Positions 4,212-21,428 of a DNA stretch of 25,054 bases are shown in pieces. Under the pieces are notes generated by a model that saw only the letters and a program-made list of their open reading frames with translations, searched no databases and had not been told where the DNA came from. The stretch comes from a virus. The position numbers were made by a program, and so were the translations under genes. How positions within the stretch are numbered: the stretch's first letter is position 1; the number at the start of each line of letters is the position of its first letter. The DNA is taken from positions 1-25,054 of IMG/VR virus record IMGVR_UViG_3300005613_000391; one strand, 5' to 3'.

Positions 4212-5396
4212 TTAAGCGTACAAATATTCCTCTTCGTCTTTATTAATTCTACCTGTTGGAGCCATCGTCTGGTTTCCATAAGACTGTGTTCCTGGTGTAA
4301 GTGAAGAAGAATAAGCCAGAGGTGTTGTCTGATTGAAATTAGATAGAGCTGATTGACCACCCTGGATAGCAGATGAAGCACTGCTGGCCACTGACTGTAA
4401 TTGCTGTTGAAGTTGACTTGCTTGTTGGTCTAGTTGTGTCTGTGATGTGGCTGTAGCTAGATTTATTTCATATATCTGGTTTCTAAGTGCTTGTAATGCC
4501 TCTAGTTTCATCCCAGCCTTTTCACTTTCAGCCACCGCTCTTTGTCTGTCTATTTCACTCAACGCATCTTGGAAAGATGTTCTTGCCTGTTGCATAAACT
4601 TATCCTTCTGCAAGTTTATCTGAGCTACTGCATTTTGATATGACTCGTTAAGGTTAGCCATTTGGTTGTTAACCTGCTGTATTGTGTTTTCATAGTTTTG
4701 GGCGATATCTCCTCTATTCCCTGCAAATTCTCTGCTAAGTAGAGCCTGGAAGCCTTCACCAATCGGACTTGCTCCTCCAAACCTCTGTCTTCCACCCATC
4801 ATCATTTCATTAAAAAGTCTTCTAGCTGAATTCATTGCGTCTTCTTTTCTTTGTCCTGCTTGTTCTTCTTGTGACTCAAGCTCCCTTTCTCCTCTAGCCT
4901 TTTCTGCTTCAGTGCTTTGAAGAGTAGCCTCACTTTCTTTGGTTATTTGACTCTCAATTCCTGGTTGTGCCTCTCTAAGTCTTGATTCTTGACCTCCGAG
5001 ATAATCCATAATTGGACTATATATGCTTTCTATTTGCTGTCTGAACAATTCCTCAGGGGAAGGTCCTGTGTTTACAGGGGTTCCTCCGCCTCCACCTCCA
5101 CCCCCACCGCCTCCTCCCCCACTCGGTTGTGGTTGAGGTTGTGAACTACTTTGTCCACTTGCGAAGTTTTGTGGGTTAAACAAAGGATTACTTGTGTCGG
5201 GGGTGGAATAATCTGTGTCTGAGTTACTTACTTGATAACCTGATTCTGGTCCGATAGATGGTCTTGGTGCGGCTAATGCCTCTGAAACACCAAATTCGGG
5301 AAGATTAAAAGTTCTTCCAATGCTTTCAAATGCTTGAGACCACGCGTCTCTCTCTCTATTGAAAGGGTCTGTTACTAATGTCTGAAATAGTCCCAT
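4212..5396 (-). CDS. Coiled-coil virion protein with poly-glycine tract
   Basis: This 394-residue protein has a low-complexity N-terminal third rich in Ser, Pro and Gln (QSSSQPQPQPS). It is followed by 13 consecutive glycines (residues 93-105) and then a long helical region rich in Glu, Gln, Ala and Arg (about 110-345) that looks coiled-coil. There are no catalytic motifs or clear membrane segments. It lies between the tail nozzle-like gene and the very large virion gene, where podophages encode internal or ejection proteins; that role is inferred from position and helical composition only. The start is the first ATG after a 41-nt gap. It has no Shine-Dalgarno site, but a promoter-like module precedes it. 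Confidence 0.75.
   Translation of the reverse strand: MGLFQTLVTDPFNRERDAWSQAFESIGRTFNLPEFGVSEALAAPRPSIGPESGYQVSNSDTDYSTPDTSNPLFNPQNFASGQSSSQPQPQPSGGGGGGGGGGGGGTPVNTGPSPEELFRQQIESIYSPIMDYLGGQESRLREAQPGIESQITKESEATLQSTEAEKARGERELESQEEQAGQRKEDAMNSARRLFNEMMMGGRQRFGGASPIGEGFQALLSREFAGNRGDIAQNYENTIQQVNNQMANLNESYQNAVAQINLQKDKFMQQARTSFQDALSEIDRQRAVAESEKAGMKLEALQALRNQIYEINLATATSQTQLDQQASQLQQQLQSVASSASSAIQGGQSALSNFNQTTPLAYSSSLTPGTQSYGNQTMAPTGRINKDEEEYLYA
5082..5120 (-). repeat. Poly-glycine codon tract (13 GGN codons)
   Basis: Thirteen GGN codons in a row encode Gly93-Gly105 of the coiled-coil virion protein. The coding strand is purine-rich with several runs of G. The codons vary in third position, so this is a flexible linker rather than a simple mononucleotide repeat. 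Confidence 0.85.
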
Positions 5397-5437: not shown

Positions 5438-7381
5438 TCAAACCCTCTGACTTGCGCTTAGTACACCACTTGCTTGTTCTGTTGTCTTTACCTTAATTTG
5501 CAATAGTTCAAAGTTAGAATTCTCATCTGTCGAGGTTATCTCCACTTGCATTAGCCTTGCTTGCTTGAAAAGAGGTCCCCATCTGGTTATTTCCTCTGAC
5601 GAACTTGTTGCAGTTGTAGAGTCAGACTCACCCCAAGCGCTCTCACCCCATTGGGACATACCCCAGCCTGTGTTGCCTCCAGTTTCTGCACCAGATATTG
5701 TAAATGACTTAACAGTTGATGTGCTTCCGTCTTTATCTTCAACAATGATGTTTACTGTGGTTGTCCCGATTATATTCCTGAAAAGAATGTAGAAAAACTT
5801 AATAATGTTTAGCTTAGTAAAGTCGTTAAAGTATGTCTTTTTTGTCCTAAGTGTCTTTACAATAGCAGTACCATCATCGGTGTTTATACCTGCATCAAAT
5901 TCATATACCTGGTTGTTGGCATAACTTCCAATGACCCACTTCTCAGTTCCCGTACTATCAACATATTTAGTCATGTGAGAAATACCCCAGGGCATTTTCC
6001 AAGGTCCAAGAAAGCTCCCCCTTTCTCTGTCATACACTATCATCTCTTTTCGTTGTGGAAATGAAAGTATATATTTGTTGTTTACATAGAAAGCATTTGC
6101 CGTGTCATAGTCTGTATTGTTAAGTAAATCAAGATATGGTCTTATTCGGGCTGATACCTCGTTTGTTCTAATAATGTTTAAGAAGTTTGGCTCATAACCT
6201 GTTACATACAAACCATCTCGACCAAAGTAAAACGTGTCATTTTCCACAGTCGCAATAGTTCCCTGATTGGCACAACCGACTGACGTGGAAATAGCTTGAT
6301 ATTGCGGATCTAGTAGATAAAAGTTGCCAACCTGTATCTGGCTTAGTTCTACAAGATATGAAGATCTTTCCTTGTATACAACAATTCTGTCAGATATAGG
6401 CTGAACCGTAATCCCCGTTATATTATCTCCAGATCCAGGGTCAATAAACACACCTCCACCACCATCAAGAAGGTTAAACTTGGTGTGATCCGGATACTTG
6501 CCCGAGATTAGTAGTTTGTTAGGTTCGTCTGAAGGTACAACAAGAAGCCTGTCTTTATATTTTGCAATGAATTTGGACTTTACTCCAGCTGTGGTGTTTG
6601 TAAGTGGTGGCTCTTCTGTTTCACTTGTTTCTGTTCCTCTATCAACATATTTTGTTGTGGTGGGTTCTACTGAAGCCAAAAATGTTTCGTGCCCCTCTCT
6701 ACCTCGATACACCTCGTAACCACTAAGGGTTGCAGCAGACGGACCTGTCCAAAAGATGTGAACCTCTGTGTCTGATAGATCATTGGGTAAATCTTCTAAA
6801 ACATAATTGGTTGAGGCTGTGGTTTGACCTCCGTTTGGACCAACAGCAACAACTGACCAGGAATATCTCTCTGGTCCACTTGCTCCAGAGAAGTTTGATG
6901 CACCAACACCAGTGGGGGCTGATATTGTTGAATACACAGAAAGGTCGGTTCCATCGTATTCTGTAAATGTTACATCCTCAGAAACAATGTAAGTACTACC
7001 CCCCAACTGCTCTGATCTAATAATACTTCCCGATGGCCAGCTTTGTCCCGTTACTGTTGTAGAACCCGTTTCATCCTTTTTGGCTAAGTATCCCTGGTCT
7101 GATAGCGCCATAATTTCGTTTGTTGTGCCATCATCAGACTTATAAGTAGCAAATCCTCTAATTGAGCCTGTTGCATTAGCGGTGAAGTATTTTAAAGTAC
7201 CCCACCTTCCTGTAGGAACGCCCTTACCTGTAAGCATGATGTTATCGGCTTGGTCTAGCTCTTCATTGCTTAACTCTGTGGCTCTAAGAAGCATGTTGAG
7301 CCCTTTTCGAAAGGACTTCCATTCCTCATCTACTGATTTTCCTTGTTTATATTTTGGTGCACGTAAGTCAAATTTTGCCAT
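5438..7381 (-). CDS. Tail nozzle / tubular protein B-like protein
   Basis: A 647-residue beta-rich protein with repeated short motifs (YEVYRGREG, DRLLVVPSDEPNKLLISG, DRIVVYKERSSYLVE, DTFYFGRDGLYV). These look like blades of a beta-propeller, as in T7 gp12-like nozzle proteins. Residues about 155-265 read like a fibronectin-type III insertion (SAPTGVGASNFSG to the TSETEEPPLTN region). It follows the tail adaptor-like gene by only 6 nt, matching the adaptor-nozzle gene order of podophages. The start is the ATG at 7381 just after the previous stop; no Shine-Dalgarno site is seen, so translation may depend on coupling. The family assignment rests on sequence look and gene order, not a search. Confidence 0.75.
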   Translation of the reverse strand: MAKFDLRAPKYKQGKSVDEEWKSFRKGLNMLLRATELSNEELDQADNIMLTGKGVPTGRWGTLKYFTANATGSIRGFATYKSDDGTTNEIMALSDQGYLAKKDETGSTTVTGQSWPSGSIIRSEQLGGSTYIVSEDVTFTEYDGTDLSVYSTISAPTGVGASNFSGASGPERYSWSVVAVGPNGGQTTASTNYVLEDLPNDLSDTEVHIFWTGPSAATLSGYEVYRGREGHETFLASVEPTTTKYVDRGTETSETEEPPLTNTTAGVKSKFIAKYKDRLLVVPSDEPNKLLISGKYPDHTKFNLLDGGGGVFIDPGSGDNITGITVQPISDRIVVYKERSSYLVELSQIQVGNFYLLDPQYQAISTSVGCANQGTIATVENDTFYFGRDGLYVTGYEPNFLNIIRTNEVSARIRPYLDLLNNTDYDTANAFYVNNKYILSFPQRKEMIVYDRERGSFLGPWKMPWGISHMTKYVDSTGTEKWVIGSYANNQVYEFDAGINTDDGTAIVKTLRTKKTYFNDFTKLNIIKFFYILFRNIIGTTTVNIIVEDKDGSTSTVKSFTISGAETGGNTGWGMSQWGESAWGESDSTTATSSSEEITRWGPLFKQARLMQVEITSTDENSNFELLQIKVKTTEQASGVLSASQRV

Positions 7382-7387
7382 TTCATT

Positions 7388-8032
7388 CTAGCTTAAATCT
7401 TTCAAAGGATGCCTAAACTTCATCTTTGTGTCTCGTGATTGCCCCGTTGAAGACTTCATTTCCCTTCCCATCATGTTCGCTAATTGTTTTTCTGATCTCT
7501 GTTCCGCTATTGGGAATCTATCATCACCTCTTGAGTAAAGCACATATGACTCCACCTTCCTCGTTACCACCTGGGGGTCAGAAAGTTCGCATGTGTCAGT
7601 AAGCGTTGCAAGACCTGACGGATACCTTTGATAGACCACAGAAAGCGTGGACATCGAAAATAGTGCATTAAACACTAAACTATATCCTTCATTTGGATTA
7701 CCTAGTTGATAGCAATATCTATCTGTCGAAGCATAATCATATTTTGCCTCCGCCTCAATCACGTCCCACTCATTCCATTCTCCTGTGGAATCCAACACTT
7801 GCGGATTAACCATTAACTCCCTGTAGTTGCTAGGCATTGCTATTGTTGCCAAAGTTGAAGTATTCACCAAGTATTCAGCCTTAAACTCTGAAAGCTGTCC
7901 TGTTGCTGCAGCATCCCATACCGCCTGGTTTGCGTAATTGGTTCTTGTTGATAATTCATCACCTGTAGGAGCAGATGCTTCCAAATCCATTACCGAATTC
8001 ACATCGGTTAAAATGTCAGACAATGTTCTCAT
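7388..8032 (-). CDS. Tail adaptor / tubular protein A-like protein
   Basis: A 214-residue protein beginning MRTLSDILTDVN and containing NYANQAVWDAA, MPSNYRELM and VVYQRYPSGLATLTD. Predicted helices at the N-terminus and a beta-rich middle fit head-to-tail adaptor proteins (T7 gp11 or gp6-like). It directly precedes the nozzle-like gene. In the virion such proteins bind under the portal and carry the nozzle. There is no Shine-Dalgarno site. The ATG lies 6 nt downstream of a -10-like hexamer belonging to a recurrent promoter module, suggesting a leaderless transcript that restarts transcription after the sugar-modification cassette. Confidence 0.65.
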   Translation of the reverse strand: MRTLSDILTDVNSVMDLEASAPTGDELSTRTNYANQAVWDAAATGQLSEFKAEYLVNTSTLATIAMPSNYRELMVNPQVLDSTGEWNEWDVIEAEAKYDYASTDRYCYQLGNPNEGYSLVFNALFSMSTLSVVYQRYPSGLATLTDTCELSDPQVVTRKVESYVLYSRGDDRFPIAEQRSEKQLANMMGREMKSSTGQSRDTKMKFRHPLKDLS

Positions 8033-8068
8033 GTTCTTAGTTTGTTATATATTAAGGAGGGTTTTCAA
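8033..8068 (-). promoter_or_regulatory. Candidate promoter, TTGAAA-18-CAAACT-6-ATG
   Basis: TTGAAA (8063-8068, continuing TTGAAAACC) overlaps the end of the preceding glycosyltransferase gene. It is followed by 18 nt, CAAACT (8039-8044) and 6 nt to the ATG at 8032. The -10 match is poor, but the module shares its extended -35 sequence and exact geometry with those at 4174 and 18333, and shares AAACT with the latter. Confidence 0.4.
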
Positions 8069-8710
8069 ACTTATCCCTGGGGAAAGAAAAGGTGTCTCCA
8101 TATGAGTTGCCAGTGTAGGCATTGGTGACCACAAATTATATCTTTGCGTTATATCAAGCCACATTGGATGATCCGCCCAGCCGTACTTTTTAATTGTTTC
8201 TACTTCTTTTTTGAGAGCGTCATGTCTTCCTGCGAAAGTTAGGGTTGTTGACTTAACTGTTTGCCAATGTTGTCCGTCTATTTGTCTTGTAAGTTTGCCT
8301 GTTGCATGCACTTTGTCCTTGTAGTAATCAGGGTGATCGTATGGAGTCAAGAAATCAAACCACTCCAAGGCTTCCACTATTCTTTTGCCAGCATGAGGAA
8401 GAAAGTAATAATCATCCTCAACAAACATAAAATTGACCTTCTTTTCTAAGGCTATTTCCAGTTGTCTATGAAACGACTTCGTATTCCCTTCATTAAAATC
8501 AGGGTAAAATGAGGTTTCTGTCTTTTCTCCCTTAAAAATGTTTCTAAGGTCTTGATTGGGTTTGTCCATGAGAACAACAAGTTCATAATCAACATCCTTA
8601 AAAGCCTTCTTAAAAGACCTAAAGCAAAACTTAACCAATTCAATCTTATCCTTTATTGGTCTTTCCTTAAGGGCACTACCATAAGCACATGCTCTGTAAA
8701 TTATTATCAT
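8045..8710 (-). CDS. Putative glycosyltransferase (GT-A-like)
   Basis: A 221-residue protein counted from the ATG at 8710, which overlaps the previous stop as ATGA; the frame extends nine codons further upstream but the coupled start is more likely. Motifs: FRSFKKAF, then VDYELVVLMD (Rossmann-like strand) and FVEDDYYF, where E98-D99-D100 resembles the metal-binding DxD-type site of GT-A enzymes. Residues TPYDHPDYY and TLTFAGRHDAL follow. It would transfer a sugar from a nucleotide donor, acceptor unknown. It is the last gene of the modification cassette, directly before the tail genes. The family could not be named more closely. Confidence 0.65.
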   Translation of the reverse strand: MIIIYRACAYGSALKERPIKDKIELVKFCFRSFKKAFKDVDYELVVLMDKPNQDLRNIFKGEKTETSFYPDFNEGNTKSFHRQLEIALEKKVNFMFVEDDYYFLPHAGKRIVEALEWFDFLTPYDHPDYYKDKVHATGKLTRQIDGQHWQTVKSTTLTFAGRHDALKKEVETIKKYGWADHPMWLDITQRYNLWSPMPTLATHMETPFLSPGISLKTLLNI

Positions 8711-9270
8711 AATATTTCTCTGATTGGGTCTGTCCAAAGAGTTCCATGTTTCTTGTAAAAAGTTTCTTTGTCTTCTTGTTCCATCTTTTTGGGCATAGCA
8801 TTAAGAGTCCTTGCCGCTTCAGGATGTGTAACATCAACTCCATATTCTATTTCGACAGGTATTCCAGCCTTCTTTAATCTAACTGCGTAATCTGTATCAG
8901 CCCAGTATATCTGGAAACTCTCGTCAAACTTGCCAACCTCTTCGTACACCTCTTTGGGGATACAGAAGATATGAGCATGAAACACCTTAAACACACCCCT
9001 ATTAACAGTTGGGGAAACAACCTTTCCGGGTACACACAATTTCTCCAAATCGCCACGACTTAAAATAACATCATCATTTGAGAGTATGACGTAATCATAT
9101 CCCATACCAAATCCCAAATCTAAACACATGTTCCAAGCTGTAGAAAGAGTCTTTTGTTTGCCAGCCAAGACAATAGTGTTATACCCCCGAAAGGAATGTA
9201 AGCATTTTTTTAATACATCCCTTTTGCCAGGATCAACTTCATAATACGGAATTGCAACTATACTATTCAT
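8707..9270 (-). CDS. GT2-family glycosyltransferase
   Basis: A 187-residue protein. YDYVILSNDDVIL (N65-D66-D67) fits the DxD-type metal and nucleotide-sugar site of GT2 (GT-A fold) enzymes, and FQIYWADTDYAVRLKKAG fits the downstream acceptor-side region of rhamnosyltransferase-like GT2 proteins. The protein is short for the family, with an abbreviated N-terminal part (IVAIPYYEVDPGKRDVLKKCL). It overlaps the cytidylyltransferase gene by 8 nt and the next glycosyltransferase gene by 4 nt, so it is translated as part of one coupled operon. Donor and acceptor are unknown. Confidence 0.8.
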   Translation of the reverse strand: MNSIVAIPYYEVDPGKRDVLKKCLHSFRGYNTIVLAGKQKTLSTAWNMCLDLGFGMGYDYVILSNDDVILSRGDLEKLCVPGKVVSPTVNRGVFKVFHAHIFCIPKEVYEEVGKFDESFQIYWADTDYAVRLKKAGIPVEIEYGVDVTHPEAARTLNAMPKKMEQEDKETFYKKHGTLWTDPIREIL

Positions 9271-9712
9271 TTTTTACTACCTCCTTGATATTTGTTGTTG
9301 AGATGTTTCTGTGTCGTGGAATATAACACAGAGCTATATTTTGTTCCTCTAACCATTCGGGAGTAAAATCCATTTGTTTCATGTAATCTTTAAATAGCCA
9401 GTCACTTCCAACAACAATAATATCTGGAGCAACATTCATTATTGTCTGCTTACTATCTTCTCCTCCAACATTTTCTACAACTCTATCCACCAAAGACGTA
9501 AACTCCTCCAAAATAGCCTTTCTATCCCCATACTTAATAACAGGTCTCTTGCCTTTGTAGCGTTCAACGAATTCATCTGTGTTAAGCGACACGACAACCT
9601 CCCCGTCCTCACCCGCTATTTCCCTACACCAACCAAGTAAATCAATGTGTCCTCTGTGAGGTAAATCAAATGTACCACCTGTATATACTCTAAGGTCTCT
9701 TCTTTCCTTCAT
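9263..9712 (-). CDS. Cytidylyltransferase-like nucleotidyltransferase
   Basis: A 149-residue protein with the family signature GGTFDLPHRGH (residues 12-22), the RYKGKRPVIKYGDR segment and the C-terminal ISTTNIK (137-143). These match the TagD / glycerol-3-phosphate cytidylyltransferase-like branch of the CTP_transf_like superfamily. The length is close to that of TagD-type enzymes. It should activate a phosphorylated small molecule as a CDP (or other NDP) derivative; the substrate (glycerol-P, sugar-P or similar) cannot be read from the sequence. It lies between sulfotransferase-like and glycosyltransferase genes, overlapping both, which suggests it feeds an activated building block into the same modification pathway. 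Confidence 0.85.
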   Translation of the reverse strand: MKERRDLRVYTGGTFDLPHRGHIDLLGWCREIAGEDGEVVVSLNTDEFVERYKGKRPVIKYGDRKAILEEFTSLVDRVVENVGGEDSKQTIMNVAPDIIVVGSDWLFKDYMKQMDFTPEWLEEQNIALCYIPRHRNISTTNIKEVVKNE

Positions 9713-10223
9713 AGTATTTATCTACTACATACTTTTCGGCACTCAATATCTTTTCTTCTTGTTCTTTGGTCATGAGGTTGCCATTGGAAATCGATCTGTT
9801 TACATGTTCTGCTAAAAACTTATCTTCATCATATTCCTCCCCTGCCTCATCCAATGCTTCACATAAATCAAAGTATAGGTTCTCAGTTCTTCCCACAAAG
9901 TCCACTTTTTCAAACTCTTTGACAATCCGTGTGTATTTACCTAATGTTTTTTTCACAAAACTGTCCCAATCCTTTTTAACAAGAAAGTCATAGAAGCTCT
10001 TGTACCAAGCTAGCGGGTGTCTCACAAAAGTGAAGCTAAACTTATTTACTTTTGCCAACTTACGAGGTGATATATGTATTCCGTTTTCTTCCAAGTCCCA
10101 TCCTGCATCAACACACACCTTGTCATACCGACCTCCAAAGGCTCTTTTTAAACTAGCTTCAACCCAAGTTCCACCAGTTCTTGGTAAATGAAAGAAAATT
10201 GTTTTAGGTGTTGTTGCTCCCAT
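9690..10223 (-). CDS. PAPS-dependent sulfotransferase-like protein
   Basis: A 177-residue protein. FFHLPRTGGTW (PRTGGTW at 14-20) matches the 5'-phosphosulfate-binding loop of sulfotransferases, and FTFVRHPLAWYKSFYDF (RHP 68-70, S76) matches the 3'-phosphate-binding segment of the Sulfotransfer_2-type family. The expected reaction is transfer of sulfate from PAPS to a hydroxyl, here presumably on a glycan. The ATG at 10223 after GGAAAG is preferred; an in-frame TTG lies six codons upstream. It overlaps the upstream gene by 20 nt and the downstream gene by 23 nt. It is short compared with typical 200-300-residue enzymes, but both PAPS-contact motifs are present. Confidence 0.8.
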   Translation of the reverse strand: MGATTPKTIFFHLPRTGGTWVEASLKRAFGGRYDKVCVDAGWDLEENGIHISPRKLAKVNKFSFTFVRHPLAWYKSFYDFLVKKDWDSFVKKTLGKYTRIVKEFEKVDFVGRTENLYFDLCEALDEAGEEYDEDKFLAEHVNRSISNGNLMTKEQEEKILSAEKYVVDKYYEGKKRP

Positions 10224-11718
10224 CTTTCCACTTCTTTGCAATACTAAATCCGTTTTTCATTATCCACTGTGAAGCCTCTTTGTTTGATACCTCTTTGGGA
10301 ACGTCAAAGGGTAAACTAATCTTTGCGTCTATTTTCTCATCTCTTACAGGGTCAAACTTCTGTCTTTTAAACCATATCCATCTCGGCACGTTAAGAAGTC
10401 TCTCCCTATTGGTTATATTCTGTTTGGTTCCTCCAATCTGAGGCCACAAGTCAATACACTTGGCTATATTCCTGTCGTCAATTACAATGTCGTATCCCAT
10501 CTCCAATGCCCTGTCTGCAATTTCTGTGTTATCAAAACCCAATCCGTCATCAAAGAACTCCCACCAACCGTTAAGCTTATCTATTATGTGTTTGGGTGTA
10601 GCACTATAGTTCATCTCAAAGTCCAGAGGATTGTCCGTCTTCCTTAGTCCCACATGCTTTAGCCTTATATTCCTCCAGCTTTCTTTCTCTAATATCCCAA
10701 GGTCTCCATTCCACCAGTCTTCCTTGTTTTTCTTGTTTGTCTCTTTAGCATAATAATATATATCTACTGGAGCTATCAAAGCATTGGGGTTGTGTCTGTA
10801 TACATCCACGAGCATCTCTATTCCCCTGTCAGGCATGTAAATAAAGTCTTGAAGCCAAACAACAAGCTCTCCCTCCACGTTTTTCCAGGCTTTGTTGTTA
10901 GCCCTCACCAAACCACACCTTCTTTTGTACTTACCCAGCACCTTATCTCCTCTTATGTACTTGATATTTATTCCGTACTTGTCTGCATATTTTTTAGCTA
11001 TCTCACTCCTATCCTCCTCGTGATCGTCAAGAATAATCCACTCATGCACCTTGTATGTCTGATTGGCAATGTTTTCAGCCATTGTGTTCCACCAACCCTC
11101 ACGAATTGTAATCGTTACAACACTAACCTTTGGTTGCCCTAGTTTTTCTTTGAAGTATGTGTCCCACGTGTTGGCAATATTATTCCAGTAATACTTCTGT
11201 GCATGCTTGTTCCCCTTCTTTTGCTCTTCCTTCCACCTTTTTTCGTCTCCCATCAAATCTATAAGCTCTTTTTGAAACTTTTCTTGTACTTTTATGTCTC
11301 TTATGTTCCCCTCAATCTTGATACCACTTTGTACAGTCTCATCTAGGGCCGCTAGAGTCATTGTAACAGGAACACACCCATCCCTTTGACACTCTAGTCC
11401 TGTTATACAATTTATCTCCGTAAAATATGTTGGATAAGCCCAAATACCACATTGTTTTCTTAACTTTTTAAGCTCATCTTGTCCGATTCTCCCATGATGA
11501 ACAATGCCATCCTGTTCCATCATCCTCTGGACATTCTCTTTCCACTTCATTCTCTCCGGATTGTTGTGGTTGGCAACGTCAAACAGGTTCCACCCATAAC
11601 AAACATGCAACTCAGCGTCAGGATATTTCTTTTTTATATCAGGCCACATATAGAGAAGAAGGTCTAGCCCCCTATCGTAGGAACTTGCCCAATATAACTT
11701 ATGTTGTTTAGATGCCAT
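10204..11718 (-). CDS. GT4 C-terminal half fused to GT2 glycosyltransferase
   Basis: A 504-residue protein. Residues 1-190 look like only the C-terminal, donor-binding half of a GT-B (GT4) enzyme: KLYWASSYDRGLDLLL, PDAELHVCYGW, and the E-x7-E-like region YPTYFTEINCITGLEC. Residues about 197-420 are a GT2 domain: VSVVTITIREGWWNTM, WIILDDHEED, LVVWLQDFIYMP and FFDDGLGFDNTEIADRALEMGYD. The missing N-terminal half of the GT-B domain is at the end of the upstream gene, which overlaps by 11 nt in another frame. The two products may assemble into one GT-B enzyme, be joined by frameshifting, or reflect a frame-breaking mutation. The ATG lies inside the last codons of the upstream gene. Confidence 0.85.
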   Translation of the reverse strand: MASKQHKLYWASSYDRGLDLLLYMWPDIKKKYPDAELHVCYGWNLFDVANHNNPERMKWKENVQRMMEQDGIVHHGRIGQDELKKLRKQCGIWAYPTYFTEINCITGLECQRDGCVPVTMTLAALDETVQSGIKIEGNIRDIKVQEKFQKELIDLMGDEKRWKEEQKKGNKHAQKYYWNNIANTWDTYFKEKLGQPKVSVVTITIREGWWNTMAENIANQTYKVHEWIILDDHEEDRSEIAKKYADKYGINIKYIRGDKVLGKYKRRCGLVRANNKAWKNVEGELVVWLQDFIYMPDRGIEMLVDVYRHNPNALIAPVDIYYYAKETNKKNKEDWWNGDLGILEKESWRNIRLKHVGLRKTDNPLDFEMNYSATPKHIIDKLNGWWEFFDDGLGFDNTEIADRALEMGYDIVIDDRNIAKCIDLWPQIGGTKQNITNRERLLNVPRWIWFKRQKFDPVRDEKIDAKISLPFDVPKEVSNKEASQWIMKNGFSIAKKWKDGSNNT

Positions 11719-13486
11719 TTGAAATTATTAAAAACTTATCATCAGGAATATCACTCAATAGATTTCTATGATACTGGGACTTCACCATAATCTTATCAAC
11801 ATTGTCTAATTTGTTTATATATGTCGCAGAATGTGTAACATCGTGCAGGTCTATAACATATTTTTTAGCACTAACTCTTCCCGCCAAACTATCATGTCTC
11901 CATTGAATAAGGATATTGAAGTTGTCCATCTGGCTAAACATATAATAAGGAAGGTAAGTTACCCCATTAACCATCTTGGGCTTTTCAGGATCACCGAATA
12001 CAGTAACTTTATAACCCATCTTAGTCCACTCTTCAGAAAGTCTAATGACTGCTGTCTCACTTCCACCAATTCCACCCTTTCTAATACTCTCACCATCCCA
12101 CTTCTCGAAATGTTGTCTACCAAAGTTAGCAAAGTAGCAAATCTCATCCTCTTTCCATGTTCTTGGCTTTTTGTACCTGTTGTAGTACCTGTACGCAAAG
12201 GGCAACCTCTTAATCTCATCTGGTAAGGTCAAGACAAATCCAGCAATCCGATCTTCCTGTCCCGTATCAACCAAGTAATTCATTAGTTTATGTGTGTGTT
12301 CGCTTGCAATGTCCAAGTCTTTTTGTCTTTCAAGAAACTCCTCATTCTCCTGGTGTTGTGGTTGAGGGTTAATCTTGTTTAGAAGTCTAGCCGCTTCCCA
12401 TGCCTTTCTTATATTCTTCTCAGCTTTAAAATGATACTTAAGAAGTAGCTGTGCAGACAGTTCCTTTAACTCCAAAATATTGTTCATTGAGGTGTTGGAG
12501 TCATCTGTGTCTAGGTTCATTCCTATATCCATCCAATGCTTCATGGCACTATAATTGTCGAGATTATAGTAAACCTCAGCCAACCTTAAGTATAAGATTA
12601 CACTCTTCGGGTATTCTTTGAGGGCATTGTGGAGAAAATCTCTTGCTCTTCTGTGCCTTCCCAGCTTTCCCATACATTTCGCCATAAGGTTGTAGCAAAC
12701 AGCCCTTTCCTGGTCCCAACCACTCTTCTGTATATACTCCTCACCCATGCTCACACACTCAAGAAGTGTGTCTTCATCTTCATTTTCAGAATATATCTTC
12801 ATCAGGTAAAGAAGGGTCCTTGGGTCGACATCGTTTTTCTCCCTTTCATCCTTTAATTCAGCCTCCAAAAGTCTTCTATTCCTATCCATTCTCCCCCTTA
12901 AGCTTTCGGCGTCAAGATCTCTGTCAGCTCCCAAGTGAAGCCATGTTATTGGATACTTGTCAGAATACTTAACTTGAGTGTATTTAAAATTCTCGCCATC
13001 TAGTGGTACTGGAGTTTCGTGTATCCTCTTCTTCCACACAATAGAGCCAGGTCTAATAAGCCTCTCCCTCATGTGTACTATCTCAGCTTCTACAAAGGTT
13101 TCCACCGAAGGCTTCCCATCAAACTTTGAACCATAGTAATAACTGAAAAACACAGTGTCATATTCCTTCTGCTTTGATATCTTTGCGACATCTCGTATAA
13201 GGTGGGCGTTTACTATCACGTCATCAGTGTCAGCCCACAATATCCAGTCTGTTTTTGAGTCTACTCTTGAAAAGTTGTAGTTCCTTTGTTCGCTAAAGTC
13301 ATCGTTCCATTTGAGGTAAGAGAAGTCATATCCGTTCTTTTCGCACCACTTCTTGGTCTTAGTGTAGGGCTTGTGGTTGACTGTTATATAAACATCATCC
13401 ACCGCAGGTTTGGCAGACTCGACAAGCTTTTTCAAGCCGTCTAGTTTCCCATCGTCTTTACTTATAATACATAAAGCTATCTTCAT
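11708..13486 (-). CDS. GT2 - TPR - GT4 N-terminal half glycosyltransferase
   Basis: A 592-residue multidomain protein. Residues 1-200 are GT2-like (MKIALCIISKDD, FSEQRNYNFS, WILWADTDDVI with D86-T-D-D89). Residues about 215-400 are helical TPR-like repeats (LLYLMKIYSENED, CYNLMAKCMGKLGRHRRA, LYLRLAEVYYNLDNY). Residues about 445-592 form the N-terminal Rossmann half of a GT-B domain (GGIGGSE at 471-477, YKVTVFGDPE, KIMVKSQYHRNLL, KFLIISNGI). It stops immediately after ISNGI, exactly where GT4 enzymes enter the interdomain linker. The remaining half begins the next gene. The start overlaps the previous stop as ATGA. Likely role: glycan building on virion or host surface, acceptor unknown. Confidence 0.85.
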   Translation of the reverse strand: MKIALCIISKDDGKLDGLKKLVESAKPAVDDVYITVNHKPYTKTKKWCEKNGYDFSYLKWNDDFSEQRNYNFSRVDSKTDWILWADTDDVIVNAHLIRDVAKISKQKEYDTVFFSYYYGSKFDGKPSVETFVEAEIVHMRERLIRPGSIVWKKRIHETPVPLDGENFKYTQVKYSDKYPITWLHLGADRDLDAESLRGRMDRNRRLLEAELKDEREKNDVDPRTLLYLMKIYSENEDEDTLLECVSMGEEYIQKSGWDQERAVCYNLMAKCMGKLGRHRRARDFLHNALKEYPKSVILYLRLAEVYYNLDNYSAMKHWMDIGMNLDTDDSNTSMNNILELKELSAQLLLKYHFKAEKNIRKAWEAARLLNKINPQPQHQENEEFLERQKDLDIASEHTHKLMNYLVDTGQEDRIAGFVLTLPDEIKRLPFAYRYYNRYKKPRTWKEDEICYFANFGRQHFEKWDGESIRKGGIGGSETAVIRLSEEWTKMGYKVTVFGDPEKPKMVNGVTYLPYYMFSQMDNFNILIQWRHDSLAGRVSAKKYVIDLHDVTHSATYINKLDNVDKIMVKSQYHRNLLSDIPDDKFLIISNGI

Positions 13487-13932
13487 ATCTTTTTAGCCAT
13501 CTGAAATATCGGCCAATGTTTAACAAACTTAATTGCATTGTCTCTCTTTACTGGATCAAACTTGGGAAATACTTTTTTCATCATCATATATAAAGGGTAA
13601 GGATAACTTGCAAGGCTTCTACCTGTCCCCTTTCTTACTTGGTCTTTTATAGACATCTCATTGTCCTTGTAATCCTTTCTTAAACTCAACCATTCCTCCG
13701 ATTCTCTGGGCCATGTATCCCTCCACACAGATATCATTATCTCCATAAGCTTACTTCCAGCCTTAGAAAAGGGGTTTTCCGGTTTACCCAATGTCTCCCA
13801 CATCTTAACAATTACTTCCGTTGCGGCCGTTGCTTGGGGTGGAACTACTTCATATTCTTCATCGTCAATCTTAATTACTTTGGGGTCTTTTTCTCCTTCT
13901 TTCTTACCCTTCACGGTGACATTTTCACTCAT
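13483..13932 (-). CDS. Hypothetical protein downstream of capsid gene
   Basis: A 149-residue protein with a charged N-terminus (KKEGEKDPKVIKIDDEEYEVVPP) followed by a helical, Trp- and Pro-rich part (VWRDTWPRESEEWLSL, LASYPYPLYMMMKKVFPKFDP). No family was recognised and there are no signal peptide, membrane segment or catalytic motifs. It opens the operon after the capsid terminator and its stop overlaps the first glycosyltransferase start, so it is co-expressed with the sugar cassette. The ATG at 13932 lies 7 nt after an extended -10 sequence and has no Shine-Dalgarno site. Confidence 0.7.
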   Translation of the reverse strand: MSENVTVKGKKEGEKDPKVIKIDDEEYEVVPPQATAATEVIVKMWETLGKPENPFSKAGSKLMEIMISVWRDTWPRESEEWLSLRKDYKDNEMSIKDQVRKGTGRSLASYPYPLYMMMKKVFPKFDPVKRDNAIKFVKHWPIFQMAKKI

Positions 13933-14001: not shown

Positions 14002-14949
14002 TTATAAACCAGTATTATAACCAGTTCTCTTTACGTGTGCGTGTTCGTTGTATGAAACGACCGTAAATTCTGTAATATAAACTCCATTCTCTCTGTCACC
14101 GTCTACAGCCCTCTCTTCCCAGTGAGGTTCACCAGAATTGATGAGGAATGAGTGCTCAAAGAGTTCTTCTCTAATACCAAGTATTGTGAGAGAACCTGCA
14201 AGTTTCCTTACGTCCTTGTGAGCAATGATTTTGACAGTCTGACCAACTTCAGCGTCATAAACTCGAACTTCCTGTGTTAGCTTTTTATCAAAAGCTTCAA
14301 CATTTCTAGTCAAGTTTGTACCGAAGCTAGCAATTCTTCTCTTGATAACAACAGGCGCTACCAATGTATCCATTACGTAGCTTGCTCCTACTGTATCCCA
14401 GGAGTCTTGAACAATGTCGTTCAATTCTGTTTCTGTGAAAGAAGCTCCAGTGGTTCTAGCTGTTACGTTAGTAGAAATACACTGGTCGATTCCTGCAACT
14501 CCTCGTGCCGTGTCAGTTTGCCCAGCTTCAACTTCTCCGTTGACTGTAGCATATTCCATTTTGGACTTAAGTCGCCTTAATGCCCTTTCCTTTTCAACAC
14601 CCATTGCGTCTTCGCCAGTTACGTTAGCGATAGAAGCTCGAGTCCTGGAAAGTCTGACTGGAGAGTCAAGAATTATCGTTCTGTTGTTTGAGCGTTCCTC
14701 AACGTCTAGGTCGGTGTAAGTTGTTGATGCACCTTCCTTGTTTCCGCTTGCTGATGTTGCCCTGTCTTCATGGAACAAGTTCCATTCATGAAGGGTATTC
14801 ATTGCGGAAGGAGCCACTCCAAGATTAGAAGTAAAGTAGTTGTCCTCGTTAGGCGAGATATCTTTAAGAATGTCTAAAAGAGATTCTCTAAGCTCTCCAC
14901 CTGGGGTTGTACCTCCTTGCGATTGATATGTGTCTTTTCCAAATGCCAT
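14002..14949 (-). CDS. Major capsid protein (DUF5309 / SU10-like)
   Basis: A 315-residue protein. The N-terminus AFGKDTYQSQ, then GELRESLLDILKDISPNEDNYFTSNLG and LHEWNLFHEDRATS, is characteristic of the DUF5309 major head proteins typified by Escherichia phage SU10. The C-terminal part (VGQTVKIIAHKDVRKLAG, HWEERAVDGDRENGVYITEFTVVSYN) also fits this HK97-fold family. It follows the scaffold-like gene. The ATG at 14949 is chosen over an in-frame GTG three codons earlier because a full AGGAGGTGAT lies 4 nt upstream. It has its own candidate promoter, a structured leader and a terminator directly after the gene, consistent with high expression. Confidence 0.9.
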   Translation of the reverse strand: MAFGKDTYQSQGGTTPGGELRESLLDILKDISPNEDNYFTSNLGVAPSAMNTLHEWNLFHEDRATSASGNKEGASTTYTDLDVEERSNNRTIILDSPVRLSRTRASIANVTGEDAMGVEKERALRRLKSKMEYATVNGEVEAGQTDTARGVAGIDQCISTNVTARTTGASFTETELNDIVQDSWDTVGASYVMDTLVAPVVIKRRIASFGTNLTRNVEAFDKKLTQEVRVYDAEVGQTVKIIAHKDVRKLAGSLTILGIREELFEHSFLINSGEPHWEERAVDGDRENGVYITEFTVVSYNEHAHVKRTGYNTGL

Positions 14950-14953
14950 AGTT

Positions 14954-14963
14954 ATCACCTCCT
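14954..14963 (-). promoter_or_regulatory. Full-length Shine-Dalgarno site of capsid gene
   Basis: AGGAGGTGAT is fully complementary to the conserved 3' end of bacterial 16S rRNA and sits 4 nt before the ATG at 14949. It overlaps the alternative in-frame GTG, so it decides the start. Confidence 0.9.
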
Positions 14964-16474: not shown

Positions 16475-18332
16475 TTATTTGTTCAAAAAACCTTTCTGCG
16501 TCATTTAGACCCATCTCTTCGAGGTTTGCTCTTAGCAATTCCTTTATCTTTGGTCTATAACCTTCTTGTTGCATCAATTGTAACACATTAGGGTTATTGG
16601 TGAAAAGTTCCAAAGCTCTCATTCTCGCATCAGCCAGCTCTTGGTCTGCACCTGACGACATGGACTTTATGTCTGGTACATAGTCGTATGTTCCCTCCAA
16701 ATCTTCTGGGACAATAGAGAGTTCTGCCGTGTCTTCCATATCATCCAGCCTCATCTTTGGTTTTATGTCGAGTTTGCTCGGATCTTTCTCTTGTGGATTG
16801 GTAACAACTGGATGAATTGGTGTTTTAGCTGTTTCCCACAGTTCCTCAACATCAGCATCAGACAATTCTGGAGCTGACGCTACTATGTCGCCAACCATTC
16901 TTGCGTTTTCTGCCGTCACTTCCATCTCATCCAAACCTGCTCTCTTGAAGTAAGAGAACTTATCACTACCGACAATCTTTAGTATTAACTCTTTTTTGGA
17001 TGGGTCTGTGAACAAAAATTGCTTGTTGTTGCTAAGCCACATCATCATTACATCCTTAATAAACTCAGCCAGGTCGTTCTGGTTCTTTTGGTCTCTAGTG
17101 TTTTGTTGCTTAAGTGTTGCTTTCACCTCAGTTGCCGTCTTCTCGGTTTCAAATGGGTCTATGGCACTTGTTCCCTGACTCATATCCCCCATTGCAACAT
17201 TGAAGGCACTAACAAGAGCTGAATAAGTTGTCTGGAAGTATCGAAGTGAATCGCCCCTGGACTCCATTTCTGTTATTGCATCGGGGCTGTCCACCAACCA
17301 CTGTGCTTCTGGTCCATATTCAATGGTTTCTATTCTTGCAGCGTTTTCCATAATCTTAAGAGGTGGTCTCATTTTAAGTATGACCTCATCCATGTAAGAA
17401 CAAAGTGTTGCTTGAATCGCCTTCCATAGAGGGATAACTGGTTCAACTTCACTTTCTCCAAGGGCATCATCTTGGAGGTGGTAATATCTAAGTTGTGCTA
17501 TTGGCAACTTGCCATGGTCATAGGGGTTTTTTATCTCTCTTAAAATAAGTTTGTGCTCTGGAGAAAAGGTTATCCACCTGTTTTCTCTGTATTCTGTGAC
17601 AATCTGCACTACAGGAAAGGCAATGTCCTCTCCCACCCTATCTTCTAATCCTCGAAGCTCCTTAACTCTTCTTGTGTATTCTTTATCGCGCTTTTGTGAG
17701 GTATTGGGTAACTTCTCTTCGATTCTTCTCCTTATTTCCTTCAGGTTTTTAAATGAAGGTCGACCTTTAGTGTCTGTCTGTGTCTCCAAGTCTTCCAAGA
17801 ACTCCCAGCTTCTGTACTGGAACCACTTTGCGTCTTTGACATGAGTTGCAGCAGGATCCATTCCACAATCTCTAATATCAAGAAGTTTCATCTCATTACC
17901 ATCAAACTTAACTTTCCCATCTTCGTCTACTTCATATTTCCAGTAAACAAGAGCAAACTTAGACTGGTAAAGCCTTGTATCCATGTCTGCAATGCTCATC
18001 TTCACAAGCATCGAACCTCCATCGTTTGCTGTATCCCACTGGTAATCGAGAATTGCGTTGTTAAACTCAGCCTTGAGCACATCAGATCCTTCTCTTGGAA
18101 CCAATCTACCTCGCAACTTATTGTTTAAAAGCCGTCCATTCTTTTCTATTAAAGAAGTTCTTATTCTTGGATCAACAATCTTTGTAATATATGGCCAGTC
18201 ATCTGGAAGCTTTCCGTAATATGAGTCTGTTACATCATTCCACCCATTTTTCCGAGACATTCTCTTCTCATTATCCTTGTCCCACATCTCGTAATGTTGA
18301 GTTAACTCCAGTAAAAGGTCCTTTTTTGCCAT
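16317..18332 (-). CDS. Portal protein
   Basis: A 671-residue protein. The N-terminal region (HYEMWDKDNEKRMSRKNGWNDV, DPRIRTSLIEKNGRLLNNKL) and central segments (LPIAQLRYYHLQDDALGESE, PLWKAIQATLCSYMDEV) are those of podophage portal proteins. The length, place after the terminase and C-terminal Gln/Pro/Gly-rich tail also fit. The portal forms the dodecameric vertex through which DNA is packaged and ejected. The Q/P/G-rich last 52 residues are encoded in sequence shared with the overlapping downstream gene. No Shine-Dalgarno site is visible; the ATG lies 6 nt after a -10-like hexamer of a promoter module. Confidence 0.85.
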   Translation of the reverse strand: MAKKDLLLELTQHYEMWDKDNEKRMSRKNGWNDVTDSYYGKLPDDWPYITKIVDPRIRTSLIEKNGRLLNNKLRGRLVPREGSDVLKAEFNNAILDYQWDTANDGGSMLVKMSIADMDTRLYQSKFALVYWKYEVDEDGKVKFDGNEMKLLDIRDCGMDPAATHVKDAKWFQYRSWEFLEDLETQTDTKGRPSFKNLKEIRRRIEEKLPNTSQKRDKEYTRRVKELRGLEDRVGEDIAFPVVQIVTEYRENRWITFSPEHKLILREIKNPYDHGKLPIAQLRYYHLQDDALGESEVEPVIPLWKAIQATLCSYMDEVILKMRPPLKIMENAARIETIEYGPEAQWLVDSPDAITEMESRGDSLRYFQTTYSALVSAFNVAMGDMSQGTSAIDPFETEKTATEVKATLKQQNTRDQKNQNDLAEFIKDVMMMWLSNNKQFLFTDPSKKELILKIVGSDKFSYFKRAGLDEMEVTAENARMVGDIVASAPELSDADVEELWETAKTPIHPVVTNPQEKDPSKLDIKPKMRLDDMEDTAELSIVPEDLEGTYDYVPDIKSMSSGADQELADARMRALELFTNNPNVLQLMQQEGYRPKIKELLRANLEEMGLNDAERFFEQINEQAVQQAQIAGNPQAMGGAQPPIQEQGLPGIPQANPQGGVPQQMAGPNKAQ

Positions 18333-18368
18333 ATTTCTAGTTTATTTCGTGTGCTTAAGGGTTTTCAA
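18333..18368 (-). promoter_or_regulatory. Candidate promoter, TTGAAA-18-TAAACT-6-ATG
   Basis: TTGAAA (18363-18368, continuing TTGAAAACCCTTAAGC) is followed by 18 nt, TAAACT (18339-18344) and 6 nt to the portal ATG. It lies in the short gap after the zinc-ribbon gene. It is the best match among the structural-gene modules and predicts a leaderless portal transcript. Confidence 0.5.
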
Positions 18369-18372
18369 ACTG

Positions 18373-18660
18373 TCAACCCCAGCTATCCTCTATTCTTTTC
18401 TTTCTTAGTTTTGCAAACAAATCATCCACTCTCTTAAGTTTGAGTTTCATGGCCTCATATTTACACTTGGAACATATCCGAATATAGTCCCTCATGTCCC
18501 CATCATAATCAAACATATAGTTTGGTAATTGGTTGGTTTGCTTTTCTCCACAAGACTGACAGTACCACTCTTCCAAGTCTTCTTTTACAAGTCCATGGCG
18601 TGCACCACCATACTTACTCCAACCATACATCTTTTTGGTAATGGATATTTTTTTTGCCAC
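18373..18660 (-). CDS. Zinc-ribbon protein between terminase and portal
   Basis: A 95-residue basic protein with two CxxC pairs (C34-QS-C37 and C63-SK-C66) forming a likely zinc ribbon around a PNYMFDYDGDMRDY insert. A Lys/Arg-rich helix (MKLKLKRVDDLFAKLRKKR) follows. The start is a GTG at 18660, one base after the large terminase stop; an ATG 10 codons later is the alternative. Position and charge suggest nucleic-acid binding, possibly linked to packaging, but this is inference. Confidence 0.65.
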   Translation of the reverse strand: MAKKISITKKMYGWSKYGGARHGLVKEDLEEWYCQSCGEKQTNQLPNYMFDYDGDMRDYIRICSKCKYEAMKLKLKRVDDLFAKLRKKRIEDSWG

Positions 18661-18661
18661 T

Positions 18662-19960
18662 TTACAACATGCTCCATCTTTCCGTATCCAGCTTCTTTCT
18701 CGGCAGTTCTTTTCCCTGACCTTTGTAATTTACGAAGTAATACTCCAAAGCTCTCATTGCGTGACTCCACTCATCGTGAACAGGTATCTCGTTGCTTTGG
18801 TTTCGCACATCCTCGCTTATTTCCGGATAATGATAATTAAGAATACAATCCCTAAACCTTTTTAGATGTAGTGATTTTGTCATATCTCCCTCCCCCGTGT
18901 TTACAAAAAGAGACTTCATGTGCTTATGTGTTTGTCTTATCTGATCTGGTATCTTAAGACCCTTTGTCGTACTCACGTAAATACCATGCTTGGACAATTC
19001 CTCTATGGGTGACGTACCAGTTACAACGGTTCTCGCTCTGCCTGCATCATCACCTGTTACAAAATCTGGTTCTTTGTAGGGCTTACTCTTAACAACCTGC
19101 ACAAAGTGGGCTATGTTTGCGTTGTTTGCCTCGTAATAATCAATAACTCTAAACTCACCACCCAAGGGTTGAATCCATATAATTGCTGTTGGGTCATTAA
19201 CTCCAAAGTCCCAAGACAAATGCAAGGGAGCTAGTTCGTCATATGTAACCTTCTTGTAATTCTCCAATGGCCATTCTTTGTAAACAACACCTTTTGGTCT
19301 TGTAAAGTCCGCCAAATATTCTTGAGAAAATTCTTCTTTTGTCAGCTGTTCATAGGCGCTCTGTATTTCCCCCTGGTTTGCATACTTACTCAAAAGATTA
19401 ACCACATATTCACCTTGTATCTCACAAGAAGGCATTTTAAATCTTTTTGTTAGCTTGTCCTTTCCGAAGTATTTATCATAGAAGTCGTTACCCATACCTT
19501 TTGGAGTACCGATAAACCATACATCACCTGCTGTAGTCGCAAGCATCGGTCGAAGCACTTCCGGCCACACATGTCTTTTAAAGTCTGCGTACTCGTCTAG
19601 TATCATAAAGTCCACAGTAGCACCTCGAAGAGTTTCTGCGTTTTGTACTCCAATAAGTTCTATCCTGCTTCCATTGAGAAGTTCCACCTTAAGCTCTGTT
19701 GAATTAATACTCTTTCTTATTTCTTTCGGAACATAAGACAGAAGCATATTCCACACATTTCTTTTGGCTTGTGCATATTCAACTGTTACATACCAATTAC
19801 GAGTACCAGGATTTTTTATAGCTCTTTTGATAAGTTCATTAACAGCGGCTGTAGTTTTGCCTATCTGTCGTCCACAAACTGCGACAAGAAAACGCGTAGC
19901 GTTGTTGTGCCATTCTAATTGGTGTTTTTGTGGTTCATAATCAATTTTTACTGTTGGCAT
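18662..19960 (-). CDS. terL: Terminase large subunit
   Basis: The motor of DNA packaging. Counting from an upstream in-frame ATG at 19990, the Walker A is GRQIGKT (40-46) and the Walker B is FMILDEY (128-134) with catalytic Glu. The coupling motif is in FIGTPKG (159-165). The RNase H-like nuclease domain shows LSWDFGVNDPTAIIW (D261) and VTGDDAGRAR (D314/D315). Residues at the C-terminus (HDEWSHAMRALEYYF) contain the third acidic/His region. The ATG at 19960 (MPTVKIDYEP, after GGAAAG) is preferred because it limits overlap with the small subunit gene to 20 nt; the 19990 start (after GGAG) adds ten residues. The length of about 430-440 residues is normal for the family. Confidence 0.92.
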   Translation of the reverse strand: MPTVKIDYEPQKHQLEWHNNATRFLVAVCGRQIGKTTAAVNELIKRAIKNPGTRNWYVTVEYAQAKRNVWNMLLSYVPKEIRKSINSTELKVELLNGSRIELIGVQNAETLRGATVDFMILDEYADFKRHVWPEVLRPMLATTAGDVWFIGTPKGMGNDFYDKYFGKDKLTKRFKMPSCEIQGEYVVNLLSKYANQGEIQSAYEQLTKEEFSQEYLADFTRPKGVVYKEWPLENYKKVTYDELAPLHLSWDFGVNDPTAIIWIQPLGGEFRVIDYYEANNANIAHFVQVVKSKPYKEPDFVTGDDAGRARTVVTGTSPIEELSKHGIYVSTTKGLKIPDQIRQTHKHMKSLFVNTGEGDMTKSLHLKRFRDCILNYHYPEISEDVRNQSNEIPVHDEWSHAMRALEYYFVNYKGQGKELPRKKLDTERWSML

Positions 19961-20627: not shown

Positions 20628-20781
20628 GTCTTTTCCTGTAACACTCATCCGAACAATAATTCCTATGGTTTCCTCTTATAGGTATTGGCTTTCCACATCT
20701 TCTACAAACTTTGTTAATCATCTTTTTTACGTCCTTGTTTATTTGCTTTCCCGTCCCTGGTTTAAAGCTCCAGTAGTTCAT
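20602..20781 (-). CDS. Small zinc-finger protein
   Basis: A 59-residue basic protein with C26-RR-C29-GKPIPIRG and NYC43-SDE-C47-YRKR, a CxxC...CxxxC zinc finger of the kind seen in many short phage and bacterial proteins. Its ATG overlaps the stop of the hexapeptide-repeat gene as ATGA, and its end overlaps the next gene by 26 nt. A nucleic-acid or regulatory role is possible but not shown. Confidence 0.65.
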   Translation of the reverse strand: MNYWSFKPGTGKQINKDVKKMINKVCRRCGKPIPIRGNHRNYCSDECYRKRHEVNKKDI

Positions 20782-21428
20782 TTTTTAACTATTTTGTAAC
20801 CTTTTTCTTTTAATAACTCCATTGCTTCTTGTGTCTTGTCGTCTTCTATTCCCTTTTCTTTTAATATTCCGTATTCGATATTTCCCTTAACAAGTTTGCC
20901 ACAAGTAATAGTTTTTTCTTCTTCAGTTGCTTCTGCCCAAGTCTTTATTCCCGCATAAGCATTTAATCCAAATGAAAGCTCACCCTCACAAGTTATGTAA
21001 AGTCCTGCTGATATACCATCACCAGCTTTGATATACTCACCAGCTTCGATAGACCAACCAGCTTCGATAGACTCACCAGCTTCGATAGACCCACCAGCTT
21101 CGATAGACCAACCAGCTTTGATATACCTACCAGCTTCGATATACCTACCAGCTTCGATAGACCAACCAGCTTTGATAGACTCACTAGCTTTGATATACCT
21201 ACCAGCTTCGATATACCTACCAGCTTCGATATACCCACCAGCTTCGATATACCTACCAGCTTCGATATACTCACCAGCTTTGATAGGCCCACCAGCTTCG
21301 ATATACCCCGTTACATACAATCCCTTATTCAAATCTATGACAATATCCTCATCGCTTACCAAATCTCCTTCATGTTTATACCTCCAACCTTCGTCTATTA
21401 TTCCTTTTGTATCTTTTGTTATCTTCAT
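20778..21428 (-). CDS. Hexapeptide-repeat protein (xYIEAG repeats)
   Basis: A 216-residue protein. Residues about 41-136 consist of in-register hexapeptides of the form [Y/S]-I-[E/K]-A-G-x. They are followed by GDGISAGLYITCEGELSFGLNAYAG, which from memory also ends similar repeat proteins in other phages. Such regular short repeats usually fold as a beta-solenoid; the function of this group is not known to me. The C-terminal 60 residues are charged and non-repetitive. A strong GAGGTGAT site precedes the ATG at 21428. The DNA repeat underneath could vary in copy number. Confidence 0.8.
   Translation of the reverse strand: MKITKDTKGIIDEGWRYKHEGDLVSDEDIVIDLNKGLYVTGYIEAGGPIKAGEYIEAGRYIEAGGYIEAGRYIEAGRYIKASESIKAGWSIEAGRYIEAGRYIKAGWSIEAGGSIEAGESIEAGWSIEAGEYIKAGDGISAGLYITCEGELSFGLNAYAGIKTWAEATEEEKTITCGKLVKGNIEYGILKEKGIEDDKTQEAMELLKEKGYKIVKK
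21021..21308. repeat. Tandem array of sixteen 18-nt units
   Basis: Units begin at 21021 and every 18 nt to 21291 without a register break; plus-strand consensus is ACCAGCTTYGATAKACYN. Variation is concentrated at fixed positions (C/T in the sixth codon region, T/G in ATATAC versus ATAGAC, and the last two bases). It is wholly inside the hexapeptide-repeat gene. Confidence 0.9.

Follow-up and report, generated by a model that had tools for sequence, protein, structure and literature searches.

What does a virus build with a block of glycan-modifying genes lodged among the genes of its particle, and onto what would the product be placed? The question is raised by the stretch of viral DNA analysed here (25,054 nucleotides, hereafter the window). 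In this 25-kb virus record, the late genes are all encoded on the minus strand, as is a six-gene cassette (8045-13486) located between a capsid side and a tail side.

Organization of the locus

The cassette and its flanks are given below in the order of reading, from the capsid side to the tail side.

SU10-type major capsid protein: 14002..14958, minus strand; PF17236, 3.4e-41; upstream flank
p149: 13483..13932, minus strand; 149 aa, conserved, separates the capsid gene from the cassette, 4-base overlap with GTa; no function assigned
GTa: 11708..13486, minus strand; 592 aa, GT2 (GmaR-like), TPR repeats and N-terminal half of a GT4; C-terminal end ...SNGI
GTb: 10204..11718, minus strand; 504 aa, C-terminal half of the same GT4 and a second GT2; 11-base overlap with GTa
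ST: 9690..10223, minus strand; 177 aa, Sulfotransfer_2-like with both PAPS motifs; start ATG 10223
CYT: 9263..9712, minus strand; 149 aa, cytidylyltransferase-like nucleotidyltransferase with HxGH and ISTT motifs
GTd: 8707..9270, minus strand; 187 aa, GT2-like glycosyltransferase (by profile)
GTe: 8045..8710, minus strand; 221 aa, predicted GT-A-fold glycosyltransferase, no Pfam family; start ATG 8710
Putative tail adaptor/tube gene: 7388..8032, minus strand; downstream flank, conserved in relatives; no family match
Head-closure Hc3-like/tail protein: 5438..7381, minus strand; phrog_578, 8.9e-6; downstream flank

The six genes had been described as tightly coupled, and each of them indeed overlapped the previous one. 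With two starts corrected from alignments (ATG 10223 instead of TTG 10241 for ST and, from an alignment of relatives, ATG 8710 instead of TTG 8737 for GTe), the overlaps along the series p149, GTa, GTb, ST, CYT, GTd and GTe amounted to 4, 11, 20, 23, 8 and 4 bases. The tail gene began 12 bases past GTe, and all genes from p149 through the tail gene overlapped or nearly touched. The original prediction placed the cassette between the capsid gene and a tail adaptor gene. Its location was correct, but p149 intervenes on the capsid side and the adaptor gene displayed no family match in profile searches, its label being due to its position and to its head-closure-like neighbour. Recurrence of the same cassette in dozens of other contigs indicated that the arrangement is not a matter of chance. 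Likewise, the genes did not turn out to be a host segment: they are viral and occupied the same place in every readable relative.

Two further proteins of the window deserve mention. One (4212-5396, 394 aa) displays a Ser/Pro/Gly-rich stretch and a long glycine run and is a candidate glycan acceptor; the other (20778-21428) contains tandem hexapeptide-like repeats (IEAGxY/IKAGxS) and displayed no Pfam match.

A GT4 divided between GTa and GTb

Profile comparison confirmed the domains predicted for the first two genes, i.e. GT2, TPR and the N-terminal half of a GT4 in GTa, and the C-terminal half of a GT4 followed by a GT2 in GTb. The latter GT2 passed its Pfam cut-off (PF00535, 41.6 bits for a cut-off of 23.3). 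The GT4 scores of the window were just below the cut-off for PF00534 (25.3 versus 26.4 bits) and below it for PF13439 (22.5 versus 28.5), while relatives were above both. The GT2 domain of GTa by itself was below the Pfam cut-off. Among solved GT2 enzymes its family profile matched GmaR (1.1e-12) and no other at 1e-3, a match that may lean to protein acceptors since few enzymes of that GT2 subfamily have been solved. The TPR repeats follow the GT2 as they do in GmaR, and the architecture is thus of the GmaR type. As this subfamily probably also includes enzymes acting on lipid-linked sugars or LPS, we infer a protein acceptor for GTa at the level of the family. GmaR itself glycosylates flagellin (O-GlcNAc), and its TPR part was proposed to hold the protein (PMC9638930).

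In the window and in nearly all relatives, the N-terminal half of the GT4 runs in GTa up to the interdomain linker (SNGI in the window) and the second Rossmann half opens GTb. Phage ctKR88 displayed the same domains as a single GT2-TPR-GT4 protein of 761 aa, its second GT2 being separate. Judging from this comparison, the GT4 of one protein in ctKR88 is divided between GTa and GTb, and its two halves are predicted to reassemble. A contig binned as Micrarchaeota carried GTb itself in two genes. In phage ctf1B273, the two GT4 halves are separated by a GroEL-like chaperonin gene (L061 5640-7208).

The distance between GTa and GTb varied among relatives, with overlaps of 4, 11, 14 and 20 bases and gaps of 2, 18 and 75-793 bases. 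A programmed frameshift joining the two genes was rejected because of this variation. An intron was also rejected, as no Rfam match was recorded at the junction (window and six relatives) and the two genes overlap by 11 bases in the window. Some relatives have an HNH gene at the junction: that of L039 was identified by Pfam, those of L049 and L053 by their clustering with it. Contigs L047 and L053, 99.7% identical, differed at this very place. Split genes accompanied by endonucleases, the products of which reassemble, were described in T4-like phages (PMC2988022), and an endonuclease may have caused the split observed here. Several gaps between GTa and GTb (L035 11779-11920, L048 11773-11849 and L056 5821-5960) contained CxxC zinc-finger-like fragments, perhaps HNH remnants.

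A fixed core and an exchanged payload

The gene set was searched for in other viral genomes. GTa and GTb were recovered in 34 viral contigs by a GTa profile search, with a varying payload and with ST in none of them. GTa was conserved at 43-59%. GTb followed it in 33 of the 34 contigs, the remaining one ending first, and both genes were located behind the capsid region as far as the contigs extend. Upstream of GTa, p149 was recognised in most relatives; downstream of the cassette, the tail gene was present in all 26 contigs that were long enough. Conversely, GTa was present in every contig that has the related capsid gene and extends far enough downstream of it. GTa and GTb are thus core genes of this lineage.

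The interval between GTb and the tail gene varied in content. A nucleotidyltransferase occurred in nine contigs and a DegT aminotransferase in 14, of which 13 also had an epimerase; nucleotidyltransferase and aminotransferase were never found together. RGP-like proteins, methyltransferases and others formed the remaining payloads. On the GTa tree, the payload class changed at least nine times; classes were more clustered than with shuffled labels (mean 16.7) and far from a single origin each. Replacement was directly evidenced by contigs L056 and L059, genomes about 89% identical that differ mainly between GTb and the tail gene. Their flanks align on both sides of this interval at 87-91% identity, but 1.85 kb in the former (methyltransferase, GTd and GTe) and 1.06 kb in the latter (nucleotidyltransferase and GTd) could not be aligned. 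Two points are the most notable of the study, namely that the core is conserved while its payload is exchanged, and that the split of the GT4 is itself conserved; neither is visible from a single window.

Short Lys/Arg-rich reading frames were recorded after GTb, near the point of payload exchange, in L033, L037, L056 and L059. Between the cassette and the tail gene of L042, a pair of proteins with concanavalin-like lectin domains is encoded (18059-19512). Three contigs of the lineage (L063, L064 and L065) were placed in metagenome-assembled genomes named 'bacterium nzgw467', Micrarchaeota and Diapherotrites. We did not accept these names as host assignments, the contigs being probably mis-binned viral ones; the Micrarchaeota bin, with 2.0 Mb, is large for that group.

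Nucleotidyltransferase and additional glycosyltransferases

CYT had been predicted as a TagD-like cytidylyltransferase. Its superfamily was clearly recognised (PF01467, 1e-18; 68.3 bits for a cut-off of 21), and its HxGH and ISTT motifs are present and conserved. The resemblance to TagD did not extend to the curated level: CYT scored 71.2 bits against the glycerol-3-phosphate cytidylyltransferase model TIGR01518 (cut-off 165.4) and 67 bits against the heptose-1-phosphate enzyme (cut-off 181), and these scores therefore establish neither its substrate nor the use of CTP, nor the glycerol- or sugar-phosphate component that the original prediction suggested for the glycan.

The two following genes agreed with the original prediction of a GT2 and of a further GT-A-like protein. 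The family profile of GTd matched a solved GT2 at 6.8e-9. GTe displayed no Pfam match, and its structure was modelled from an alignment of 23 relatives (pLDDT 94). The fold of the model is GT-A, close to GlcNAc-transferase I (Z 16.4, rmsd 3.1 over 187 residues) and also to POMGNT1 and SpsA. This confident model points to GTe as a GT-A-fold glycosyltransferase, the sugar not being given by the fold alone. A domain similar to GTe is also part of a viral protein annotated as cytidyltransferase-like, and this links GTe to the neighbouring CYT.

The sulfotransferase-like gene

ST displayed no meaningful match to Pfam and the PF03567 model gave nothing at E<=10, which is why we call it sulfotransferase-like rather than a member of PF03567. 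It carries a 5'-phosphosulfate motif (HLPRTGGT, with Arg where Lys is usual) and a 3'-phosphate motif (FVRHPLAWYKSFY), in that order, and both align with those of PF03567 members. A permissive tblastn search of ST against plasmids yielded eight records, six of them on sulfotransferase-annotated genes. Four of these plasmid sulfotransferases, all PF03567 members, formed a first test profile, against which ST scored 68.7 (E 3.3e-10); none of 100 shuffles exceeded 22.8, and no other protein tested from the window exceeded 19.5 (the 1391-aa protein left out). Since this first set had been picked by similarity to ST, a second profile was built from proteins retrieved by PF03567 alone, independently of ST, and still gave a score of 41.4 (E 1.7e-5). 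One PF03567 member alone, which shares the PRTGGT motif, scored 40.2 against ST, with 100 shuffles reaching at most 20.7. The alignable part comprises only the first ~85 residues, including both PAPS motifs; the C-terminal part aligns with nothing. A PAPS-type sulfotransferase-like protein of predicted activity is clearly supported by the two separately chosen profiles, as originally proposed; profile searches thus upheld the assignment of this gene as well as that of CYT to its superfamily. A single-sequence AlphaFold model of ST (pLDDT 39) was not usable.

ST was seen in this window only. Cluster, motif and PF03567 searches of the relatives recorded no counterpart, nor did a pattern scan of viral and genome contigs or a search of annotated phages at E<=0.01, and the gaps between GTb and CYT in relatives contained no relic of it. 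Two matches (E 0.006-0.01) in the phylum of the Micrarchaeota-named genome, of which 301 genomes were covered, were dismissed, as they lay largely outside the motif region. Sulfotransferases do occur in other phages. In the huge uncultured phage LR756508 (L062 5249-5980), a weak Sulfotransfer_3-like gene adjoins a complete GT4 gene.

Independently of the question of the target, ST might be a decayed or repurposed relative instead of an active PAPS sulfotransferase. Its shortness (177 aa), its escape from Pfam, the Arg residue mentioned above and its single occurrence would agree with decay. Yet, the reading frame is open and overlaps the genes on either side, neither PAPS motif is damaged, and PRTGGT is also found in a PF03567 member, so that we consider this unlikely. 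A sulfated glycan, as the original prediction proposed, appears plausible.

Proposed function and possible targets

On balance, we lean towards a protein-glycosylation system that the virus encodes, that acts in the cytoplasm and is produced along with the head and tail proteins, and that places a variable glycan, here probably sulfated, on proteins of the virion. This reading is favoured because of the likeness of GTa to GmaR, the lack of membrane segments in the six cassette proteins, the rarity of integrases, the location between head and tail genes, and the absence of a flippase and of DNA-hypermodification enzymes among 14 records. Guided by its TPR repeats, the GmaR-like GT2 of GTa would place the first sugar on a virion protein, at Ser or Thr. 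The chain would be extended by the GT4 assembled from the GTa and GTb halves, together with the GT2 of GTb. GTd and GTe would add further units, one of them perhaps activated by the CYT nucleotidyltransferase, and ST would add a terminal sulfate, taken from host PAPS. A payload swap between GTb and the tail gene would then change the glycan, GTa and GTb being retained.

The main rival is a remodelling of the host envelope, in which LPS, capsule or another surface glycan would be altered, blocking superinfection or changing adhesion. NDP-sugar epimerase and aminotransferase genes are present in many relatives, and bacterial relatives of ST lie near polysaccharide genes. Likewise, O-antigen nucleotide-sugar genes of groundwater Patescibacteriota phages were read in that way (PMC12911398). 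However, the cassette of the window encodes no membrane protein and a Polysacc_synt flippase was found in 0 of the 14 records, so that a soluble acceptor fits. An integrase occurred in only one of the 14, which makes lasting lysogenic conversion unlikely for most of these viruses, and in every relative the cassette holds a constant place, flanked by head and tail genes, instead of belonging to an accessory region. Since some records are fragments, no absence among the 14 is absolute. We regard envelope remodelling as possible, if rather doubtful. Decoration of the virion or, late, of the host envelope had both been proposed, and this choice is now narrowed to the virion as the more likely target, which is not proven. 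Points against it are the epimerase and aminotransferase of relatives, also typical of O-antigen pathways, the single and short ST, and the GT2 subfamily of GmaR, which is probably not limited to protein acceptors.

Two other targets were considered. Glycosylation of DNA by phage enzymes is known (as cited in PMC12619734), and the glycosyltransferases of the cassette might act on modified bases in the genome of the virus. TET/JBP (PF12851), C5-methylase (PF00145) and thymidylate synthase/hydroxymethylase (PF00303) were each found in 0 of the 14 records, some of them fragments, and the GT2-TPR protein resembles a protein glycosyltransferase; this seems very improbable. The enzymes might also act on different soluble targets (host proteins or small molecules, for instance) without any virion or envelope role, which would suit six proteins devoid of membrane segments. 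This is improbable as well, as strict linkage to virion genes and payload exchange are more easily explained by selection on an exposed structure.

Returning to virion glycosylation, a broader proposal can be put forward, tentatively: a core O-glycosylation machine common to the lineage, with a split GT-B and an exchangeable payload, by which related viruses might bear different glycans, sulfated in the present case. Phage surfaces are usually regarded as bare protein and, to our knowledge, this would be the first sulfated phage particle. If true, particles would vary their coat much as capsules vary among bacteria, a matter of relevance to adsorption, stability and recognition. L056 and L059, near-identical genomes with different payloads, constitute a natural experiment. 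As for the split GT4, its fused counterpart in a relative makes enzyme reassembly directly testable.

Comparison with known systems

The original prediction knew of no described phage system of this composition. In the open-licence literature, no paper describing the combination was found, nor any on sulfated phage particles. The parts are known, i.e. nucleotidyltransferase-glycosyltransferase neighbours (as in a Streptomyces phage), phage sulfotransferases and virion glycosylation.

Glycans occur on the capsid and tail tube of mycobacteriophages (Freeman 2023, as cited in PMC12619734; also PMC12691614). As far as these sources describe that system, it shares with the cassette phage-encoded glycosyltransferases and virion proteins as acceptors, the latter only proposed here; the cassette differs by its multi-enzyme, exchangeable composition, its nucleotide-sugar and sulfate enzymes, its split GT4 and an inferred target. 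Listeria GmaR, the best solved relative, has a GT2 followed by TPR repeats as in GTa; yet GTa runs on into a GT4 half, and the antirepressor part of GmaR was not seen in it. In Streptomyces phage Elmer, a CYT homologue (49% identical) adjoins a group of three genes for glycosyltransferases, but without an annotated sulfotransferase and, in the stretch read, not between capsid and tail genes. Split nrdA of Aeromonas phage Aeh1 (mobE; PMC2988022) is likewise a gene in two, and HNH genes occur at the junction in some cassette relatives; contrary to Aeh1, the window has no endonuclease between GTa and GTb, and reassembly of its GT4 is a prediction. Finally, the uncultured Manatee Spring phages ctKR88 (MW202524) and ctf1B273 (MW202497) encode GT2-TPR-GT4 proteins 24-25% identical to GTa. 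The locus of ctf1B273 differs by its interposed GroEL-like gene and lies between terminase and portal, whereas ctKR88 has its GT2-TPR-GT4 gene just behind the capsid gene, like the cassette, with the whole GT4 in one protein.
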